Source: Candidatus Schekmanbacteria bacterium (GTDB lineage Bacteria; Schekmanbacteria; GWA2-38-11; J061). From it: a stretch of DNA of 64,000 nucleotides. A program made the position numbers and the translations under genes. The notes beneath the pieces are model-generated. The model was not told the origin of the DNA and made no database searches. It saw only the letters and a program-made list of their open reading frames with translations. The DNA is taken from contig JACRJM010000003.1 in NCBI GenBank assembly GCA_016219965.1, positions 380,299-444,298 of the forward strand, in the 5' to 3' direction. This document shows positions 11,126 through 19,414 of this stretch, piece by piece. The first letter of the stretch is position 1, and each line of letters begins with the position of its first letter.

Positions 11126-11286
11126 AATCCCCTCCTTTATTTATATAAAATCTAATTTGAGATTACACTAGTTCAACAATGAAGCGCAACATTTCGAAAA
11201 GCGGGTGGGAAGGATATTGTAAAAACTTTAAAATTCTTGTGCCCCTCCACTCACTATATCTTCAAGAACATTGCACTCTAAAGCTG

Positions 11287-11313
11287 TGTCGGTTTTTCAG
11301 ACATAGCATGTCT
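11287..11313. promoter_or_regulatory. Candidate enhancer (UAS) for the sigma-54 promoter at 11456
   Basis: TGTCGGTTTTTCAGACA (11287-11303) is an inverted repeat, overlapping the perfect palindrome AGACATAGCATGTCT (11299-11313). It lies about 145-170 bp upstream of the -24 element and resembles the half-site cluster upstream of the PEP-CTERM gene. The rest of the 402-bp gap between pckA and the SBBP gene is AT-rich, and I see no gene in it. Confidence 0.4.
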
Positions 11314-11455
11314 CAATATTTCAATGAGTTAGTTTAAACACAGATAAAATGTGTTGGATAATTTAGACACTTTTATCATATTAAGGTTACTGCAATAAAA
11401 TAAAATCATTTAAATAACTCAATATATCAATAAGATAAGCAATATATTGGCAAAG

Positions 11456-11471
11456 TGGTATGTATATTGCT
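11456..11471 (+). promoter_or_regulatory. Sigma-54 (-24/-12) promoter for the SBBP lipoprotein
   Basis: TGGTATGTATATTGCT fits TGGYAYR-N4-TTGCW at every defined position. The predicted start near 11482 leaves a leader of about 46 nt with an AGGGGAAA ribosome site before the ATG at 11528. Its architecture matches that of the promoter at 3650-3665. Confidence 0.75.
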
Positions 11472-11527
11472 TGCGTTGTTTTACTTAACTTTTTGTTTAT
11501 CAACATTTTTCAGTATAAGGGGAAAAT

Positions 11528-14500
11528 ATGCTGTCCAAGAACTACGTTACCAGACTATCAACAATCTTATTAGCTCTATTGCTAATTCCATTAGTTTCAT
11601 GCTCAATTCAGAAACCACAGCAATCGCTTAATACCCCAACTAATCCTGACAAGAAGGCAATTACTGCAAAGATGGCAAAGCTTCAGATTCCCTTCATTGA
11701 GAACAGAGGGCAGTTGCCGGATGAGGTAAAGTATTATGCAAACACCTTTGCAGGAACTGTCTATGTCAAAAAGAATGGCGAGATTGTTTATAGCCTCAGC
11801 AGAAATCACGGAGTAGCCTCTAAACTTGCTAACAGGAAAGTAACAGTCCTCAGTGAGAACCTTGTTGGTGGAAAATCAATATCACCAGTTGGAATGGATA
11901 GCTCTCAAACTAAGGTCAACTATTTTACAGGCAATGACAAAAGCAAATGGCAAACCGGCATATCAACATTCAACGAGGTGAACCTCGGTGAGATTTATAA
12001 TAATATAGAGCTTAAACTTAAAGCTTATGGGAATAATATTGAGAAGCTCTTTGTTATTAATGGGAATGGCAAAGTTGAGGATATAAAGCTCAATATAGAG
12101 GGCTCTAATGGATTAAAAATAAATGATAAGGGCGAGCTTGAAGTTGAAACAGAACTTGGTAATGTCGCATTCACAAAACCCTTTGCATATCAAGAGATAG
12201 ATGGAAAAAGATTTGAGGTTAAGACTGAGTTTATAATTGATTCGTCACTCTCCTATGGTTTCCATGTTGCCTCATACAACCCAAACTATCCGCTCATCAT
12301 TGACCCTCTTCTTGCCTCAACCTTTATTGGAGGAAGTGATGCTGATGGAGGCAATGCCATAGCCATAGACTACTCAGGCAATGTCTATATCACAGGACGG
12401 ACTGCTTCATCCAACTTTCCCACAACAGGGACTTCTTATGATAGCTCCTTTAATGGTTCTCATATTGTTTATGGTGTCGGGGATGTCTTTGTCTCAAAGC
12501 TAAATAATTCATTAACCACACTTCTTGCCTCAACATTTATTGGAGGAAGCAGTGATGAAGAGAGCAATTCCATAGCCATAGACTCCTCAGGCAATGTCTT
12601 TGTCACAGGATACACTATGTCATCCAACTTTCCCACAACAGGGACTCCTTATGATAGCTCCTTTAATAGTGGACTAGATGTCTTTGTCTCAAAGCTAAAT
12701 AATTCATTAACTACTCTTTCTGCCTCAACATTTATTGGAGGAAGCAGTAATGAATTCGGCAATTCCATAGTTATAGACTCCACAAGCAATATCTTTGTCA
12801 CAGGGGAGACCAGTTCATCCAATTTTCCCACAGCGGGGGCTCCATATCTTTATGATAGTTCACTAAATGGTGGTTCTGATGTCTTTGTCTCAAAGCTAAA
12901 TAATTCATTAACTACTCTTTCAGCTTCAACCTTTATTGGAGGAAGCGGTAATGATACCGGCAATTCCATAGCAAGAGACTCCTCAGGCAATATTTATGTC
13001 ACAGGGGAGACTTACTCATCCAACTTTCCCACAACAGGGACTCCTTATGATAGCTCCCATAATGGCAATACTGATGTCTTTGTCTCAAAACTAAATAATA
13101 TATTATCTACTCTTCCAGCCTCAACTTTTATTGGAGGAAGCGGCTATGATATTGGCAGAGCCATAGCCATAGACTCCTCTACGGGCAATGTTTATGTGGC
13201 AGGGGAGACTGGCTCATCCAACTTCCCCACAGCAGGGAGCCCTTATGATAGCTCCTATAATGGCAATACTGATGTCTTTGTCTCAAAGCTTAACAGTTCA
13301 TTAAATACTCTTTCAGCTTCAACCTTTATTGGAGGAAGTGGTTCTGATTCAATGGGCGATTCCATAGCAAGAGACTCCTCAGGCAATATTTATGTCGCAG
13401 GTTCCACTGATTCATCCAATTTTCCCACAGCAGGGACTCCTTATGATAGCTCCCATAATGGCAATACTGATGTCTTTGTCTCAAAGCTTAACAGTTCATT
13501 AACTACTCTTTCAGCCTCAACCTTTATTGGAGGAAGTGATGTTGATGGAGGCACTTCCATAGCAAGAGACTCCTTAGGCAATATCTTTGCCACAGGGTGG
13601 ACCGCTTCATCCAATTATCCCACAACAGCAGGGGCTTATGATACATCCAATAATGGAGGTAATTGGGCGGGTAGTTCTTTTGGAGATGTCTTTGTTTCAA
13701 AGCTTGATAATAATTTAAGCTCCGATGACCCTGATGGAGACGGGATTAGTTATCTAGTTGACAACTGTCCTAACACCTATAATCCTGACCAGACAGATAC
13801 AGACGGTGACGGCATAGGTGATGCCTGCGATATGGACATAGATGGCGATGGAATATTAAATGGCTCTGACAACTGCCTAAATACATATAACCCTACTCAG
13901 GTTGATTCTGATAATGATGGAATCGGTGATGCCTGTGATACTGATAATGATAACGATGGAATATTAAATGGCTCTGACAACTGCCCAAATACTTATAACC
14001 CCACTCAGGCAGATTCTGATCATGATGGAATCGGTGATGCCTGCGATTCTGACAATGATGGCGATGGAATACCAGATGCCTCCGACAACTGTCCTTCTGT
14101 TTCAAACCCGGATCAGGCAGATGCTGACAATGATGGTACAGGTGATATCTGCGATACCTGTACAGATATAGACGGAGATGGTTACGGCAATCCTGGATTT
14201 TCAGCAAACACTTGTCCTGCGGATAACTGTCCTGATATTTCAAATCCAGATCAGGCAGATACGGACAATGATGGTATAGGTGATATCTGCGATGCTGACA
14301 TAGATGATGATGGAATATTAAATGCCTCAGACAACTGTCCTTCTGTTTCAAATTCGGATCAGTCAGATATAGACAATGATGGCATAGGTGATGCCTGTGA
14401 TACCTGTATAGATACAGATGGAGATGGATACGGCAATCCAGGATTTGTAAACACTTGTCCTATTGACAACTGCCCTAATGTTTCAAATCCAGATCAGGCA

Positions 14501-14878
14501 GATTACAACAATAATGGACAAGGTGATGCCTGTGACCCTATCCCGACACTAATCACTCTTTCCTCCTTTGAAGTAAAACAAACCGGCAGGAAAGTTGCGC
14601 TCAAATGGAAAACCGGAACTGAAATTGACAACATTGGATTCAACATCCTCCGCAGCGAATCAGAAGATGGCCAATATAAGAAGATAAACCAGAAGCTCAT
14701 CAAGGCCAAAGGCACTGCGATAAAAGGGGCAAGCTATCAATTCAAAGACAATAACATTGAGGCAGGCAAGACATATTGGTATAAGCTTGAGGATATAGAC
14801 AGCAACACAGGAGCTACTCAGCATGATGCGGTGAAGGTTGATGTTGCTGCAAAGAAATCCAAGACAAAGAAAAATTAA
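11528..14878 (+). CDS. Large SBBP-repeat / thrombospondin type 3 lipoprotein
   Basis: 1116 residues. Signal peptide with lipobox LVSC at about 23-26. Residues 50-255 match the N-terminal domain often preceding SBBP repeats (FIENRGQLPDEVKYYA). Seven SBBP (beta-propeller) repeats follow (about 261-728), each with ASTFIGGS, a GN-[IV]-[YF]-VTG strand and DVFVSKLN, enough for one seven-bladed propeller. Residues 734-1003 are calcium-binding thrombospondin type 3 repeats (DxDxDGIGDACD and DNCP units). The end (about 1007-1105) is a fibronectin-III-like domain beginning LITLSSFEVK. Probably a surface-anchored adhesin. It is driven by a sigma-54 promoter and followed after 14 bp by a small peptide gene. 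Confidence 0.9.
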   Translation: MLSKNYVTRLSTILLALLLIPLVSCSIQKPQQSLNTPTNPDKKAITAKMAKLQIPFIENRGQLPDEVKYYANTFAGTVYVKKNGEIVYSLSRNHGVASKLANRKVTVLSENLVGGKSISPVGMDSSQTKVNYFTGNDKSKWQTGISTFNEVNLGEIYNNIELKLKAYGNNIEKLFVINGNGKVEDIKLNIEGSNGLKINDKGELEVETELGNVAFTKPFAYQEIDGKRFEVKTEFIIDSSLSYGFHVASYNPNYPLIIDPLLASTFIGGSDADGGNAIAIDYSGNVYITGRTASSNFPTTGTSYDSSFNGSHIVYGVGDVFVSKLNNSLTTLLASTFIGGSSDEESNSIAIDSSGNVFVTGYTMSSNFPTTGTPYDSSFNSGLDVFVSKLNNSLTTLSASTFIGGSSNEFGNSIVIDSTSNIFVTGETSSSNFPTAGAPYLYDSSLNGGSDVFVSKLNNSLTTLSASTFIGGSGNDTGNSIARDSSGNIYVTGETYSSNFPTTGTPYDSSHNGNTDVFVSKLNNILSTLPASTFIGGSGYDIGRAIAIDSSTGNVYVAGETGSSNFPTAGSPYDSSYNGNTDVFVSKLNSSLNTLSASTFIGGSGSDSMGDSIARDSSGNIYVAGSTDSSNFPTAGTPYDSSHNGNTDVFVSKLNSSLTTLSASTFIGGSDVDGGTSIARDSLGNIFATGWTASSNYPTTAGAYDTSNNGGNWAGSSFGDVFVSKLDNNLSSDDPDGDGISYLVDNCPNTYNPDQTDTDGDGIGDACDMDIDGDGILNGSDNCLNTYNPTQVDSDNDGIGDACDTDNDNDGILNGSDNCPNTYNPTQADSDHDGIGDACDSDNDGDGIPDASDNCPSVSNPDQADADNDGTGDICDTCTDIDGDGYGNPGFSANTCPADNCPDISNPDQADTDNDGIGDICDADIDDDGILNASDNCPSVSNSDQSDIDNDGIGDACDTCIDTDGDGYGNPGFVNTCPIDNCPNVSNPDQADYNNNGQGDACDPIPTLITLSSFEVKQTGRKVALKWKTGTEIDNIGFNILRSESEDGQYKKINQKLIKAKGTAIKGASYQFKDNNIEAGKTYWYKLEDIDSNTGATQHDAVKVDVAAKKSKTKKN
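12308..13711 (+). repeat. Seven tandem SBBP coding repeats
   Basis: Units of about 195-205 bp recur with near-identical blocks, for example the stretches encoding ASTFIGGS and DVFVSKLN. High DNA identity between neighbouring units points to recent unit duplication and makes the region prone to copy-number change. Confidence 0.9.
13727..14536 (+). repeat. Thrombospondin type 3 coding repeats
   Basis: Asp-rich repeats encoding DxDGDGI, DNCP and GIGDACD units, eight or so in number, in two unit types: one with ILNGSDNC, the other with CIDTDGDGYGNPGF. Each DxDxDG loop is a classical calcium-binding site. Confidence 0.85.
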
Positions 14879-14892
14879 ACAGGGAGTCAATT

Positions 14893-15048
14893 ATGAATAA
14901 TCCAAAAAAAGCTTACAGAAAACCAACTATCAAGCAAGTGAAACTTGTTCCGGAAGAAGCGGTCCTCGGCGTGTGCAAGAGTGATACCGGGGCAGGCCCT
15001 AATCAGTCAATATGCATAATCCCCCAGTGCTTTAATCCGGGGAGCTGA
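14893..15048 (+). CDS. Small RiPP-precursor-like peptide (51 residues)
   Basis: ATG at 14893 with GGGAG 6 nt upstream, 14 bp after the stop of the SBBP lipoprotein, so very likely in the same sigma-54 transcript. The N-terminal half (MNNPKKAYRKPTIKQVKLVP) is basic and leader-like, followed by EEAVLGVCK; the C-terminal half (SDTGAGPNQSICIIPQCFNPGS) is neutral, with Cys28, Cys41 and Cys46, and ends in Gly-Ser. This leader-plus-Cys-core layout, and the Pro-Glu-Glu-Ala-Val-Leu-Gly junction, resemble ribosomally made, modified peptides. No modifying enzyme (radical SAM, PqqD, LanM or YcaO) is in the window. The role is unknown. Confidence 0.65.
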   Translation: MNNPKKAYRKPTIKQVKLVPEEAVLGVCKSDTGAGPNQSICIIPQCFNPGS

Positions 15049-15183
15049 GGGGTAAATAAAATAGGGACAGCGCCCGTTTTTTCCGAAGCAGCGCTCGCTG
15101 TAGGATTTATGAACTTCACATTTACTACACAAAAATAGGCTCAGGTAAAAACTACATGCAGCCTAACTTTTTGATTTATTGAA

Positions 15184-15256
15184 AGCCGGCGAGCGGAATT
15201 GAACCGCTGACCTGCTGATTACGAATCAGCTGCTCTACCAACTGAGCTACGCCGGC
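15184..15256 (-). tRNA. tRNA-Thr (anticodon CGT)
   Basis: The minus strand folds into a complete cloverleaf: acceptor GCCGGCG/CGCCGGC, D-arm GCTC...GAGC, anticodon stem GCTGA/TCAGC with loop TTCGTAA (anticodon CGT, reading ACG), and T-arm AGCGG-TTCAATT-CCGCT. The 3' CCA is not encoded. The 16 nt at its 3' end recur at 9396-9411. Confidence 0.95.
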
Positions 15257-15268
15257 CTGTTAAGCGTT

Positions 15269-15297
15269 CTTCTAACACCACTTTATTGCACTGTCAA
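15269..15297 (-). promoter_or_regulatory. Promoter of tRNA-Thr
   Basis: On the minus strand TTGACA (15292-15297) and TAGAAG (15269-15274) are separated by exactly 17 nt, and the expected start lies a few bases before the tRNA 5' end. This also fills most of the gap before the next gene. Confidence 0.6.
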
Positions 15298-15436
15298 CCT
15301 CATGAAATTCTTATCAGTCAAATAAAAAATCCTTATGAAAATATTAATGGATTAATTCATTTTATATTATTAACCATAACAACAATATTATTAGGTGTGC
15401 CAAGAATTTTTTAAATTTTAGTTTTGGGGGGCAGTG

Positions 15437-15904
15437 ATGAATGAACAATCAAATGGGGTTTTTCCTCAATTGACAGCATCTAACCTTGAAGGAAGACAAT
15501 TCAACCTACCCGGCGATTTTGAAGGTGAAATCAATTTGCTATTCATAGCTTTTGTCCGTGAACAGCAGGATATTGTTGACAGATGGGTTAACGAAGCAAA
15601 AACATTGGCAAACTCCCATCCGAAGCTCTGCTATTATGAATTGCCAACCATATGCAAGGTCAATGTGGTTTACCGCAAATTCATAAACGGTGGAATACGG
15701 ACAGAAATCCAAGATCTAAAAGCCCGTGAAAGCACCATAACATTATATCTGGACAAAATGGACTTCCGCTCCTCACTTGAAATTCCAGATGAGGAAACAA
15801 TTTACGTCATGCTTGTTGACCGAAAGGGGAGTGTCCTGTGGAGGACTGAAGGTAAATTCACTGAAGAAAAATTAGAAGAGCTTAACAAAGCCTTAAGCCA
15901 GTAA
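15437..15904 (+). CDS. Thioredoxin-fold-like cytoplasmic protein without catalytic cysteines
   Basis: 155 residues from ATG 15437, chosen because GGGGGG ends 5 nt before it; a GTG one codon earlier is possible. The pattern resembles AhpC/TlpA-like or ATP10-like thioredoxin folds: FPQLTASNLEGRQFNLPGDFEGEINLLFIAF, then a helix, then YVMLVDRKGSVLWRTEGKFTEEKLEEL. Where a peroxiredoxin or TlpA has its CxxC or peroxidatic Cys, this has VREQQD, so redox activity is unlikely. No signal peptide. Function unknown. Confidence 0.65.
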   Translation: MNEQSNGVFPQLTASNLEGRQFNLPGDFEGEINLLFIAFVREQQDIVDRWVNEAKTLANSHPKLCYYELPTICKVNVVYRKFINGGIRTEIQDLKARESTITLYLDKMDFRSSLEIPDEETIYVMLVDRKGSVLWRTEGKFTEEKLEELNKALSQ

Positions 15905-16055: not shown

Positions 16056-16331
16056 ATGTTAGACGATGTATCAAAAGAAAAGGCGTTGTCGCGGCTTAAG
16101 AAAATCGAAGGACAGATAAGAGGGATAAGCCGCATGGTTGATGACAAGCAGTACTGCATAGACATTCTTACGCAGATTTCGGCAGCAAGTGCCGCGCTTT
16201 CCAATGTGGCAAAACTTATATTGAAAGAACATGTTGAAACCTGCGTCACAGATGCTTTGAGAAGCGGCAAGGAAAAAAGAAAAATAGATGAACTCATGGA
16301 CGTTATTTTCAAGTTCAAGAATACAACCTGA
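16056..16331 (+). CDS. csoR: CsoR-type copper-sensing repressor
   Basis: 91 residues, the normal length for the all-helical CsoR/RcnR/FrmR family. The Cu(I) ligand set is complete: Cys34, His59 and Cys63, with the same 25 and 4 spacing as the Mycobacterium CsoR triad. Copper binding releases the operator, here the palindrome at 16013-16031, so the gene regulates itself and the chaperone and ATPase downstream. GGAGG lies 5 nt before the ATG. Confidence 0.92.
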   Translation: MLDDVSKEKALSRLKKIEGQIRGISRMVDDKQYCIDILTQISAASAALSNVAKLILKEHVETCVTDALRSGKEKRKIDELMDVIFKFKNTT

Positions 16332-16377
16332 AACATAAGCAACAAACATCAAACCATATTATTTAAGGAGAATTAAA

Positions 16378-16590
16378 ATGGCTGAAGCAAAACTTACAGT
16401 TGATGGTATGTCGTGTCAGATGTGCGTAAAGCATGTAAAAAAGGCTATCGAGGAATTCAAGAGCGCAAGGAACGTCAATGTTGACCTTGACAAGAAGGAA
16501 GCTACATTTGCATTTGATCCTTCAATTGACAATTTAACTGCAATAATAGGCGCCATAACTGAAGCTGGTTACGAAGCGGCACAGAAGTAA
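16378..16590 (+). CDS. copZ: CopZ-like copper chaperone (HMA domain)
   Basis: 70 residues forming a single heavy-metal-associated domain with the metal-binding motif GMSCQMC. It should carry Cu(I) in the cytoplasm to the ATPase encoded 20 bp downstream. The AAGGAG site is strong. It sits between repressor and ATPase in the classic order csoR-copZ-copA. Confidence 0.92.
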   Translation: MAEAKLTVDGMSCQMCVKHVKKAIEEFKSARNVNVDLDKKEATFAFDPSIDNLTAIIGAITEAGYEAAQK

Positions 16591-16609
16591 TTTTTTTTGG
16601 GGAAAGTCC

Positions 16610-19414
16610 ATGGAGAAAAGAACGGAAATACCTGTATTTGGAATGACCTGCAACCACTGCGTGCGCGCCGTAACAAAAGCGCTTAAGAAGCTCGACGGTG
16701 TCGGAGAATTAGAGGTATCCCTTGAAAAACAGCTTGCAACTGTGTCCTTTGACGACACTAAAGTCAGCGAAGGCACCTTAAAAGATGCCATAGTAAAAGA
16801 GGGGTATTTTTTAGATGCAGACAAGGCTGCTCTTGCGGCAGCTGCGGAGGCTTCTCCTGCACCTATAGAAGCAGAAAAACCTGCTTTAAAAACTATAACG
16901 TCGAACTTCAAAATAACCGGCATGTCATGTGTAAACTGTGCAAGGACAATTGAAAAGGGACTTTCCAAAGTTGAAGAGATAAAAGAAGCGGTAGTTAATT
17001 TTCCCATGGAATCTCTTAAGGTCGAGCATCTTGAAGCTTTAACATCTCAAGCAATTGCTTTAAAGGTTAAAGACCTGGGCTACGGAGCTATCCAGGCTGA
17101 TGGAAACGGAGCAGGGAAGCTCAGCTTCACCATAGAAGGAATGAGCTGTGTTAACTGCTCAAAGACCATAGAAAAAGTTTTAGGGAAAGCAGAGGGGATA
17201 AAAAGCGTATCTGTAAATTTTTCAATCGAGCAGGGGACAGTGGAATATGACAACTCCATAATCACTGCCGAAGGGATTTATGAGCTTGTAAAACAGGCAG
17301 GCTACAAGGCAGTCCCAAGGGAAGATGATGGAGATAAAGAAAAGATCGCCCACAAGGAAAAAAGATCCTTTCTCCTTACTGTCTTCTTAACCATTCCCAT
17401 AGCCCTGCTGGTACATCTTCCCCAGTTCGGAGTAAATTTTCATCCTTTTGGAACATATCAGGACTATGCTGTTTTCGGGCTTGCAACCATTATCCAGATA
17501 ATCGGAGGCTTTCCATTTTACAGGGGCGCTTATTATTCGCTTAAAAACAAATCAACAAACATGGATGTCCTCGTATCTCTGGGAATTACAGCCGCATATT
17601 TTTACAGCACATTCATGCTCTTTTTCGGAAGCAGCATGGAAGGCATGGCGGCGTCTTCCGGAGCAGGCATTGACACTTCAGCCCTGAATGCAAATGACTC
17701 GATGGATATGAGCTCATTAAACATGGAAGGTGTTCCGCAGGCAGCCGGGCATATGATGCATCACCTGATGTTTGAAGTTGCTCCGGAGCTTTTAAGCTTT
17801 ATTTTGCTTGGCAAACTGATGGAAGCACGCGCCAAAGGTAAAGCAGGACAGGCGCTCAAAAAACTCCTTGAACTCCAGGCTGACAAGGCAAGGCTCATCG
17901 TTGACGGAGTTGAAAAGGAAGTGCCGGCATCACAGATTTCAGTGGGCGATATCGTGCTGGTAAAGCCCGGAGAGAAAATACCTGTAGATGGAGAAATAAT
18001 AGAAGGAAGCGCAAGCATTGACGAAGCTATGATATCCGGAGAATCCATTCCGGTTGAAAAGAAGCCGGGCGACAGTGTGACAGGCGCAACTATAAACAAG
18101 TCAGGTCTTTTAAAAATAAGGACCATGCGGATAGGAAAAGACACTGTGCTCTCTCAGATCATAAAGATGGTGCAGGAAGCGCAGGCTGACAAAGCACCAA
18201 TACAGCGTTTTGCCGACACTGTTTCCAATTATTTTGTTCCCGCAGTTGTTTCGATCGCCCTTATAAGTTTTGCAGTATGGTTTTTCATGATAGGGGAGAC
18301 ATTCCTTTTTGCATTTACAATAATGATATCAGTCCTCGTTATAGCCTGTCCATGCGCACTTGGCCTTGCAACTCCCACTGCCATAATGGTTGGGAGCGGC
18401 ATAGGATTGAACAGGGGAATCCTGTTTAAGAAAGCGAGCGTACTAGAAAACATATCAAGACTCAATATTGTGCTCTTTGATAAAACCGGGACAATCACAA
18501 AAGGCGAGCCCAAAGTTGTTGGTACTTCGTTTGCACCGGGTATCACGGACAACGAAGCATTAATGATAGCAGCAAGCGCTGAAGCGTCATCCACTCATCC
18601 TCTTGCTGAGGCTGTTGTAGATTACGCAAAAGAAAAAGGGATTACCCTCTCCGCTACAGACAACTTCCATGAAGAGAGCGGCATGGGGATAACATGCACA
18701 ATTTCAGGAAGCCGGGTTATTGTCGGAAAAAGAGCCCTCCTTGAGAAAAATGGAACTGATATGTCGGGAATCAAAAGCGCAGCGGAACGGCTTGAATCAG
18801 AAGGCAACACGCTGGTCTTTGCGGCAAAGGATGGAAAGGCAATAGGCGTATTCGGGATTGCTGACGTAATAAAAGACAATGCGCCTCAGGCAATAAAGAG
18901 GCTTCATGCTCTGGGAATAAAAACATGCATGATTTCCGGAGACAATAAAAAAATTGCCTCGATTGTAGCAGGAAAAGTAGGGATAGACACATTTGAGGCT
19001 GAAGTCCTGCCTCAGGATAAAATAAATGCCGTAAGAAAATATCAGGATCAGGGGCTCAAGGTTGGAATGGTAGGGGACGGCATCAATGATGCACCTGCCC
19101 TTGCACAGGCAAACATAGGGATAGCCATTGGCTCGGGTACTGATGTGGCAAAAGAAACAGGTGATGTCGTTCTTGTTAAAAACGACCTGCTAGATGTGGA
19201 CCGCGCAATACAGCTTGGAAGAAAAACACTCACCAAGATAAAACAGAATTTTTTCTGGGCACTTTTTTATAATGCAATAGGAATACCTATAGCTGCCGGG
19301 GTGTTTTATCCGTTTACTCTGCCGCCCCAGTGGTGTGCGCTTGCAATGGCATTCTCATCGGTATCGGTGGTGAGCAATTCGCTGCTACTACTAAGGTTTT
19401 CTAAGAAGTTATAA
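16610..19414 (+). CDS. copA: Cu(I)-exporting P1B-type ATPase
   Basis: 934 residues, longer than usual because of three N-terminal HMA domains with CxxC at 14-17, 107-110 and 180-183. The core is complete: phosphatase loop GES at 478-480, transmembrane CPC (580-582), phosphorylated Asp in DKTGT (624-628) and hinge GDGINDAP (822-829). Between two early membrane helices (about 340-390) is an extra Met- and His-rich loop (MDMSSLNM, GHMMHHLMFE) that could receive or release copper on the outer face. It pumps Cu(I) from the cytoplasm. Last gene of the csoR operon; its stop is 5 bp from the convergent gspN stop. Confidence 0.96.
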   Translation: MEKRTEIPVFGMTCNHCVRAVTKALKKLDGVGELEVSLEKQLATVSFDDTKVSEGTLKDAIVKEGYFLDADKAALAAAAEASPAPIEAEKPALKTITSNFKITGMSCVNCARTIEKGLSKVEEIKEAVVNFPMESLKVEHLEALTSQAIALKVKDLGYGAIQADGNGAGKLSFTIEGMSCVNCSKTIEKVLGKAEGIKSVSVNFSIEQGTVEYDNSIITAEGIYELVKQAGYKAVPREDDGDKEKIAHKEKRSFLLTVFLTIPIALLVHLPQFGVNFHPFGTYQDYAVFGLATIIQIIGGFPFYRGAYYSLKNKSTNMDVLVSLGITAAYFYSTFMLFFGSSMEGMAASSGAGIDTSALNANDSMDMSSLNMEGVPQAAGHMMHHLMFEVAPELLSFILLGKLMEARAKGKAGQALKKLLELQADKARLIVDGVEKEVPASQISVGDIVLVKPGEKIPVDGEIIEGSASIDEAMISGESIPVEKKPGDSVTGATINKSGLLKIRTMRIGKDTVLSQIIKMVQEAQADKAPIQRFADTVSNYFVPAVVSIALISFAVWFFMIGETFLFAFTIMISVLVIACPCALGLATPTAIMVGSGIGLNRGILFKKASVLENISRLNIVLFDKTGTITKGEPKVVGTSFAPGITDNEALMIAASAEASSTHPLAEAVVDYAKEKGITLSATDNFHEESGMGITCTISGSRVIVGKRALLEKNGTDMSGIKSAAERLESEGNTLVFAAKDGKAIGVFGIADVIKDNAPQAIKRLHALGIKTCMISGDNKKIASIVAGKVGIDTFEAEVLPQDKINAVRKYQDQGLKVGMVGDGINDAPALAQANIGIAIGSGTDVAKETGDVVLVKNDLLDVDRAIQLGRKTLTKIKQNFFWALFYNAIGIPIAAGVFYPFTLPPQWCALAMAFSSVSVVSNSLLLLRFSKKL

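Follow-up and report, generated by a model that had tools for sequence, protein, structure and literature searches.

A dispersed family of putative RiPP precursors, probably modified in trans, beside genes for exported proteins in a Candidatus Schekmanbacteria genome

A 51-residue open reading frame (ORF) directly behind a lipoprotein gene of a Candidatus Schekmanbacteria bacterium is, in our judgment, probably a RiPP precursor gene that the genome carries in about eight scattered copies, most of which lie beside genes encoding a C-terminal Fn3-like domain (CTD) and which would be modified in trans by an enzyme cassette on another contig, C4. The ORF was found in a stretch of 64,000 nucleotides, hereafter the window. 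From its relatives, its gene neighborhoods, and comparison with known systems, we infer the chemistry and function of the peptide.

The ORF encodes MNNPKKAYRKPTIKQVKLVPEEAVLGVCKSDTGAGPNQSICIIPQCFNPGS (Table 1). As the sequence-only reading of this DNA had described, it has a well-formed ribosome site (GGGAG, 6 nt before the ATG) and follows the gene of a surface lipoprotein; purine-rich stretches likewise precede the other copies of the peptide gene in this genome. The lipoprotein carries a lipobox-like LVSC near its N terminus, and a gap of only 14 nt separates its stop codon from the peptide gene, with which it likely forms one operon. A terminator scan of positions 11200 to 15450 returned no site on the + strand, either between the two genes or downstream of the peptide gene. 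Past the ORF, a tRNA-Thr gene lies on the opposite strand (15183 to 15257), and positions 16056 to 19414 hold what we take, from the translations, to be an ordinary set of a metal-responsive regulator, a metal-binding protein, and a P-type ATPase. Against Pfam and NCBIfam, the peptide had no match at an E value of 10. The earlier statement that no maturation enzyme lies nearby is correct: profiles of the kinase, radical SAM enzyme, PqqD, peptidase, and nucleotidyltransferase matched none of the ORFs of the 64-kb window at an E value of 1e-3, and the precursor profile was the sole cassette-family profile to match there at that threshold.

Table 1. Coordinates, within the window, of the peptide gene, its predicted parts, and the adjoining lipoprotein gene
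Feature	Position	Strand	Description and evidence
Exported lipoprotein gene	11528..14878	+	DUF7948, SBBP repeats, TSP_3 repeats; Pfam PF25778, PF06739, PF02412
C-terminal Fn3-like domain (CTD) of lipoprotein	14546..14875	+	Residues 1007-1116 of the window protein; common partner of peptide-linked genes
Ribosome-binding site GGGAG	14882..14886	+	Read from sequence; 6 nt before ATG
Precursor peptide gene	14893..15048	+	51 codons and stop; genome copies, alignments, codon analysis
Predicted leader, residues 1-23	14893..14961	+	Y8xxP11xI13 recognition motif, ends PEEA; alignments A1, A2, A6
Predicted core, residues 24-51, VLGVCKSDTGAGPNQSICIIPQCFNPGS	14962..15045	+	Three Cys, C-terminal Ser

A search of the window's own genome (G000; 3.58 Mb, 98% complete) with the peptide returned 12 places, eight of which were full length or one residue short (E values of 8.7e-32 to 5.9e-24). 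These eight copies are 78 to 100% identical, and the other four places comprise two damaged copies and two short fragments. One damaged copy, on contig C6, has the start of its leader swapped for the end of an SBBP gene, while the other, at C14:107695, lacks the start of the leader. Damaged copies lie at L044 7571-7684, L039 8693-8806, and L052 2229-2381, and damaged forms include an SBBP fusion, a copy without the leader start, and a copy in the related genome G003 with the Tyr replaced and no Ser end. ORF conservation across the genome is far beyond chance; the gene is real and under strong selection. Pairwise NG86 comparisons (28 pairs, of which 19 were usable and nine were left out for lack of a usable dS) gave a median dN of 0.08, a median dS of 1.36, and a median dN/dS of 0.05, and the copies are thus old paralogues. 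Over all 28 pairs, codon differences in residues 1 to 27 were 261 synonymous versus 169 nonsynonymous, and those in residues 28 to 51 were 299 versus 44. Given these counts, the core is constrained more than the leader, and the copies of this genome yield nearly one product.

Three of the 60 relatives searched (G001, G002, and G003) have two to four strong peptide matches each. G003, which is Candidatus Schekmanbacteria GWA2_38_11, a member of the order that includes the window's genome, has four window-type copies, yet at 70% completeness shows neither an orthologous kinase (best E value, 1.2e-8) nor a close radical SAM enzyme (best E value, 7.7e-46). Farther afield, precursor loci include three in MAGs titled Acidobacteria, one in a Thermoanaerobaculaceae MAG, and one in a Chloroflexota MAG. 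The precursor profile matched 20 of 386 genomes at an E value of 0.01, the window's genome included, and 37 of 285 sampled genomes of one other phylum at an E value of 0.001. Conserved homologues, on which the sequence-only reading had made its case depend, are therefore present in the genome itself, in its relatives, and in other phyla.

The usual cassette combines a PqqD-type protein, a radical SAM/SPASM enzyme, the precursor, an HprK-like kinase, a SipW/archaeal-type signal peptidase, and sometimes a nucleotidyltransferase. Among 19 non-Schekmanbacterial precursor loci, we found the kinase at 18, the radical SAM enzyme at 15, PqqD at 13, the peptidase at 15, and NTP_transf_5 at 6, counting a weak radical SAM match at L056 (where the kinase gene is on the opposite strand) and a weak, distant peptidase match at L098. 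Twenty further loci, viewed over ±1.5 kb, gave 16, 17, 15, and 13 for the kinase, radical SAM enzyme, PqqD, and peptidase, respectively; one of them, L160, repeats L127 of the first set. The DNA fetched for L099, L100, and L101 holds a precursor and a kinase with no radical SAM or PqqD match, and that fetched for L132 holds a precursor and none of the cassette enzymes. The proposal that the ORF is a RiPP precursor is supported by these neighborhoods, in which homologues from other phyla adjoin genes for PqqD, a radical SAM enzyme, a kinase, and a peptidase.

In a precursor alignment of 15 rows (A1), C28, C41, C46, and S51 are invariant, and the consensus of a further alignment (A6) is YxKPxIxxVxLxPEEAVLxxCK. 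All of 24 diverse precursors contain [Y/W/F]xxP and the first conserved Cys, which is followed by Lys in 23 and by Arg in one, and each has two to four Cys after the predicted cut. Fifteen positions past the Tyr, 20 of the 24 carry a small residue (A, S, T, or C), and the terminus is GS or GT in 21. Since the motif of linear polyphosphorylated peptide (LPP) precursors places the cut at this same distance from the Tyr, the leader is probably removed after Ala23. The leader-core junction proposed earlier at PEEAVLG was near this position, with the leader now predicted to end at its PEEA; residue 3 of the core so delimited is Gly.

The C terminus is the other constant feature. Of 38 precursors representing other types and genomes, 31 end in Ser, 6 in Thr, and 1 in Gly. 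This tally excludes the window-type Schekmanbacterial copies (of which the full-length ones all end in Ser), a degenerate copy, G003:C113, with neither a stop nor a Ser at the terminal position, and the copies of G402, G592, and G638; it includes L092, another type in G003, and L093, which was spotted by eye and missed by the profile. The Gly-ended precursor, L162 (G635), is an exception whose kinase gene is 2.2 kb off. G638, G402, and G592 each have kinase genes and numerous precursors (at least 36, 10, and 26, respectively; L181 to L227) in which the same leader type is joined to hypervariable cores; these precursors are dispersed or form short tandem groups. A terminal Ser occurs in 36/38, 10/10, and 26/27 ORFs of these genomes (72/75 in total, a count that keeps three non-Ser ORFs that look truncated or degenerate), while Ser makes up only 9 to 13% of the preceding 20 residues. 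The precursor profiles were seeded with Ser-ended sequences and weak matches lean toward such ends, but since many matches aligned without the end of the profile, this bias does not account for the terminal Ser. Its conservation suggests that this Ser is phosphorylated, as it is in paeninodin, and such a pattern would be expected under a kinase that targets the C-terminal Ser, like PadeK and ThcoK on lasso precursors (passages of PMC9266682 drawn on here). Given that LppK and BsfK, two related kinases, target core Ser3 in the excerpts of their reports used here, the kinase alone would not fix the site.

A distant precursor match in G041 pointed to the maturation cassette. There, a pair of radical SAM genes, of which the second is SPASM-like, and a PqqD gene are followed by the precursor and then by genes for an HprK-like kinase, a methyltransferase with a weakly PqqD-like C terminus, a signal-peptidase-like protein, and NTP_transf_5. 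A single clear orthologue of the second radical SAM enzyme is encoded at C4:131366-132421 of the window's genome (47% identity; E value of 6e-106, versus 2e-22 for the next-best match in that genome), with further orthologues in G002 (52%) and G001 (49%). The cassette on contig C4 runs radical SAM enzyme, PqqD, kinase, peptidase, while PqqD comes first in G001 and G002; no precursor was found in the DNA fetched around the three cassettes. Radical SAM and PqqD genes, which the sequence-only reading proposed to seek elsewhere, are present on contig C4. Since this orthologous, precursor-less cassette sits on another contig, maturation in trans, which that reading had raised as a possibility, is the best reading. 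NTP_transf_5 adjoins a DrrAB-like exporter on contig C15 of the window's genome, on C31 of G002, and in the G041 cassette; in G001, a distance of about 3.8 kb separates the two, which adjoin the cassette. Judged by these matches, the window's genome contains the complete set, split into three parts. The best scores of the cassette-linked exporter are of the DrrA/DrrB type, under the cut-offs. CydC-like ABC genes near the peptide copy at C3:58377 (L042) and near the G001 cassette (L089) were rejected as exporter candidates, as both exceed the CydC cut-off. Directly upstream of the C4 cassette lies a gene for a subtilase protein with CARDB parts (L088 6256-9285), which is not among the CTD search matches.

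Family models recognize the cassette enzymes of the window's genome to different degrees. PqqD matched PF05402 (8.2e-16), the radical SAM enzyme matched Pfam Radical_SAM (1.7e-24), and the peptidase scored 56.0 bits against TIGR02228 (cut-off, 51.85), while the kinase was matched weakly (PF07475, 19 bits of 33.3). In an alignment of six radical SAM enzymes (A4), the CX3CX2C motif (C40, C44, and C47) is invariant, as are seven Cys (C260, C278, C315, C318, C324, C327, and C346) that we take to form a SPASM-type pattern; the Pfam SPASM model did not match the enzyme of the window's genome at an E value of 0.01. Eight kinases share an invariant Walker A motif, His158, Lys179, and Asp197, with the residue after this Asp being Glu in the three Schekmanbacterial kinases and Asp in distant ones. 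By comparison with HprK, the invariant His, the Walker A Lys, the Asp, and the residue after it may be those of the His-Lys-Asp-Asp motif. A model of the L098 kinase (five sequences; pLDDT, 81.5) is predicted to have the PEPCK/HprK fold. Foldseek ranked PEPCKs first, with HprK 1kkl_B at an E value of 2.7e-5, and the best VIA match was to a PEPCK (Z of 13.5, rmsd of 5.2, 247 aligned); HprK was absent among the 50 VIA matches listed, and the solved lasso-kinase structures (ThcoK and PadeK) were absent among the structure-search matches listed. In all four peptidases compared, the Ser of SMHPF and one His are invariant.

We found the CTD at 26 places in the window's genome, 25 besides that of the window, whose protein matches neither Pfam nor NCBIfam over this domain and gave a single weak match in the PDB, to an Fn3-like protein (E value of 0.067). 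Nine of the 10 peptide copies in this genome have a same-strand CTD gene stretch no more than 1 kb away (upstream within 270 nt for seven, overlapping for one, and downstream for one), and for the tenth the CTD is 1.5 kb away. Random placing, in which the contigs are joined into one line of equal pieces, gave a mean of 0.07 and a maximum of 2 such linkages in 20,000 draws, in agreement with an analytic figure of 0.009 per copy. Nine peptide-linked relatives are 49 to 77% identical to the window CTD. Seen from the CTD, 17 of the 26 places lie within 10 kb of a peptide copy and 9 do not, with the qualification that the profile (17 rows) was built from linked genes and its weak matches lean that way; it had no match in 15 stretches of 15 kb of the same genome chosen by position or in other unlinked stretches. 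The partner proteins are otherwise unlike one another, being of SBBP, RCC1, LVIVD, and TSP_3-like kinds in the window's genome and FG-GAP-like in G002. The gene neighboring the copy carries a CTD in 3/3 cases in G002, without any DUF7948 match there, in 1/4 cases for window-type copies in G003 (the rest being degenerate, at contig edges, or without), and in 0/2 cases in G001, where one copy is at a contig start. DUF7948 was rejected as the constant partner because peptide copies occur in G002, where DUF7948 has no match; in addition, two DUF7948 genes of the window's genome with different ends adjoin no peptide. A third, at C15:1566, has the CTD and runs off the contig end. The expectation of repeated copies downstream of SBBP genes was therefore borne out, although the more constant partner is the CTD rather than SBBP or DUF7948. 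Among the copies of this genome, the divergence of the peptide DNA tracks that of the CTD protein (Mantel r of 0.46; 77 of 5000 permutations as high), and so the link may in part reflect joint duplication. In other genomes, the CTD occurs inside C25-peptidase proteins by the cassettes of L098, L102, and L133 (E values of 2.7e-13 to 2.3e-10). These gingipain-type proteins lie beside the cassette (L098 9327-13853, L102 12316-15954, and L133 470-6676), and one lies beside a precursor copy in G002 (L051 6727-9660).

The closest known systems are LPP pathways and paeninodin-type lasso pathways, to which the present family adds the radical SAM enzyme, the Cys core, and the trans copies by surface-protein genes. 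LPPs, in the passages of PMC13381572 (Popov et al., 2026) drawn on here, have the motif YxxPxVLxHQxIxFETxxS, are phosphorylated on Ser3, and are cut after Thr in a step that requires the SipW-like LppS. Shared with them are a discrete PqqD-type protein, an HprK-like kinase, a SipW-like (archaeal-type) leader peptidase, a nucleotidyltransferase (here on another contig), an ABC exporter, and a YxxP leader with the predicted cut in the same register. In contrast to the LPPs of those passages, the system described here has a radical SAM/SPASM enzyme and a Cys core, a conserved C-terminal Ser instead of Ser3, another motif after YxxP, and a DrrAB-like exporter instead of an MsbA-like transporter; it also occurs in other phyla, with many trans precursors beside surface-protein genes, whereas LPPs are described from Bacillota. 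The words radical SAM, trans, and surface are all absent from the main text of PMC13381572. With paeninodin-type lasso systems, the likeness extends to a kinase (PadeK/ThcoK) directed at the conserved Ser that ends the precursor, as proposed here (the review PMC9266682, in part), and to a Y/WxxP leader, a PqqD-type B1 protein, and a nucleotidyltransferase (PMC13381572, in part). Instead of their macrolactam synthetase and B2 protease, we find a radical SAM enzyme and a signal-peptidase-like enzyme; neither of the former two was detected by Pfam or NCBIfam among the cassette proteins of L055 and L088. The Bsf lasso cluster, in the sections of PMC10368454 used, is similar in its precursor, PqqD-type B1 protein, HprK-type kinase, nucleotidyltransferase, ABC transporter, and an FG-GAP repeat protein at its border, but it has a lasso cyclase and a B2 protease, and its kinase BsfK targets Ser3. 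By the features compared, the present system thus resembles the LPP and phosphorylated lasso pathways and is a member of neither.

The SynChlorMet families (NCBIfam TIGR04248 to TIGR04251) also bring together, by their names, PqqD-related and radical SAM/SPASM proteins and, by profile matches, an HprK-like kinase, but the proteins of the window's genome score far under the cut-offs (ScmE, 81.6/400 bits; ScmC, 16.0/125; ScmD, 24.1/100). Sactipeptides, ranthipeptides, and other radical SAM RiPPs pair a SPASM-type enzyme with a Cys-containing core. Here, however, a kinase and a signal peptidase are added, and the radical SAM enzyme falls under the cut-off in all 25 matches listed of 86 NCBIfam families. 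In literature searches with subscription papers and preprints largely outside their coverage, we found no mention of SynChlorMet, no paper joining radical SAM, RiPP, and HprK, and none joining radical SAM, RiPP, PqqD, and HPr kinase.

In the pathway that we favor, the PqqD-type protein encoded on contig C4 would bind the YxxPx[I] leader and hand the precursor to the radical SAM/SPASM enzyme, which would alter the Cys-containing core. The HprK-like kinase would phosphorylate the C-terminal Ser (Ser51), and the SipW/archaeal-type signal peptidase would remove the leader, probably after Ala23. The nucleotidyltransferase and the DrrAB-like ABC exporter of contig C15 may then finish and export the product. 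Since most copies adjoin a gene for an exported CTD repeat protein, we expect peptide and surface protein to be made together, and the product may serve at the surface together with CTD proteins.

Several other explanations fit parts of these data. It is quite unlikely, in our view, that the peptide is of LPP type, phosphorylated and cut but linear, with the radical SAM enzyme either not the primary modifier or directed to another substrate. The kinase, PqqD, SipW-like peptidase, and nucleotidyltransferase are of LPP kinds, and L099, L100, and L101 have no radical SAM match in the fetched DNA, but a radical SAM gene accompanies the precursor in most cassettes (15/19 and 17/20), at least two core Cys are kept in 24/24 precursors, and the full LPP motif is absent, with Gly in the window peptide where the LPPs of the PMC13381572 passages have their phosphorylated Ser3.

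Near invariance of the core among the paralogues of this genome would also be explained if the peptide were a scaffold for a small cofactor. MftC acts at the C terminus of its peptide, and the radical SAM enzyme here could do the same; its best NCBIfam scores are to the mycofactocin (106.5/265 bits) and heme-type (100.6/500 bits) families, far under the cut-offs. We see only a slim chance of this, given that the cores of G638, G592, and G402 are highly variable under the same leader type and C-terminal Ser and that there are several Cys per core. Highly improbable, finally, is an unmodified peptide, a small secreted or structural partner carried along with duplicated SBBP operons: linkage to genes of exported proteins and the co-divergence of CTD and peptide noted above fit duplication as a single unit, but the N-terminal parts of the partners differ (SBBP, RCC1, LVIVD, FG-GAP, and TSP_3), homologues sit in enzyme cassettes, and the leader motif and C-terminal Ser are kept across phyla.

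Well-known multi-precursor systems keep the leader and vary the product. Dispersed precursors matured in trans, as we propose, would be a testable case with the reverse pattern, a conserved product and a drifting leader, and they would bring a radical SAM enzyme into the scheme of HprK-type kinase and signal peptidase known for LPPs in Bacillota. A C-terminal Ser retained beneath hypervariable cores offers a simple mining rule, and the precursor sets of G638, G402, and G592 may represent a trans-encoded peptide library. The tie to exported repeat proteins may reveal the purpose of phosphorylated RiPPs, the roles of paeninodins and LPPs being called unknown in the part of PMC13381572 consulted. 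We can only speculate, and consider it rather unlikely, that these peptides form a new class of RiPPs. A single cassette would then crosslink a constant peptide made beside exported CTD proteins, phosphorylate its C terminus, and trim it. The phosphate, which the nucleotidyltransferase might extend, would be a handle for attaching the peptide either to the CTD protein or to the cell surface, and like cassettes in other phyla would act on genome-wide libraries of precursors whose cores are hypervariable and which have nothing in common but the leader and the C-terminal Ser.

A second, distinct RiPP-like cassette lies on contig C4 of the same genome (L156 5443-14691; G000:C4, about 210.4 to 219.7 kb). 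It comprises a PqqD-related gene, a 58-aa possible precursor ending LGPAQACSTTPCTVSPSGSGF, a CTD protein, a radical SAM/SPASM enzyme, an HprK-related kinase, a large exported protein, and a signal-peptidase-like gene, with PqqD, kinase, and peptidase scoring under the NCBIfam cut-offs. G002 has a similar second cassette (L157). Since the L156 cassette also holds a CTD protein, such proteins accompany two kinds of cassette.
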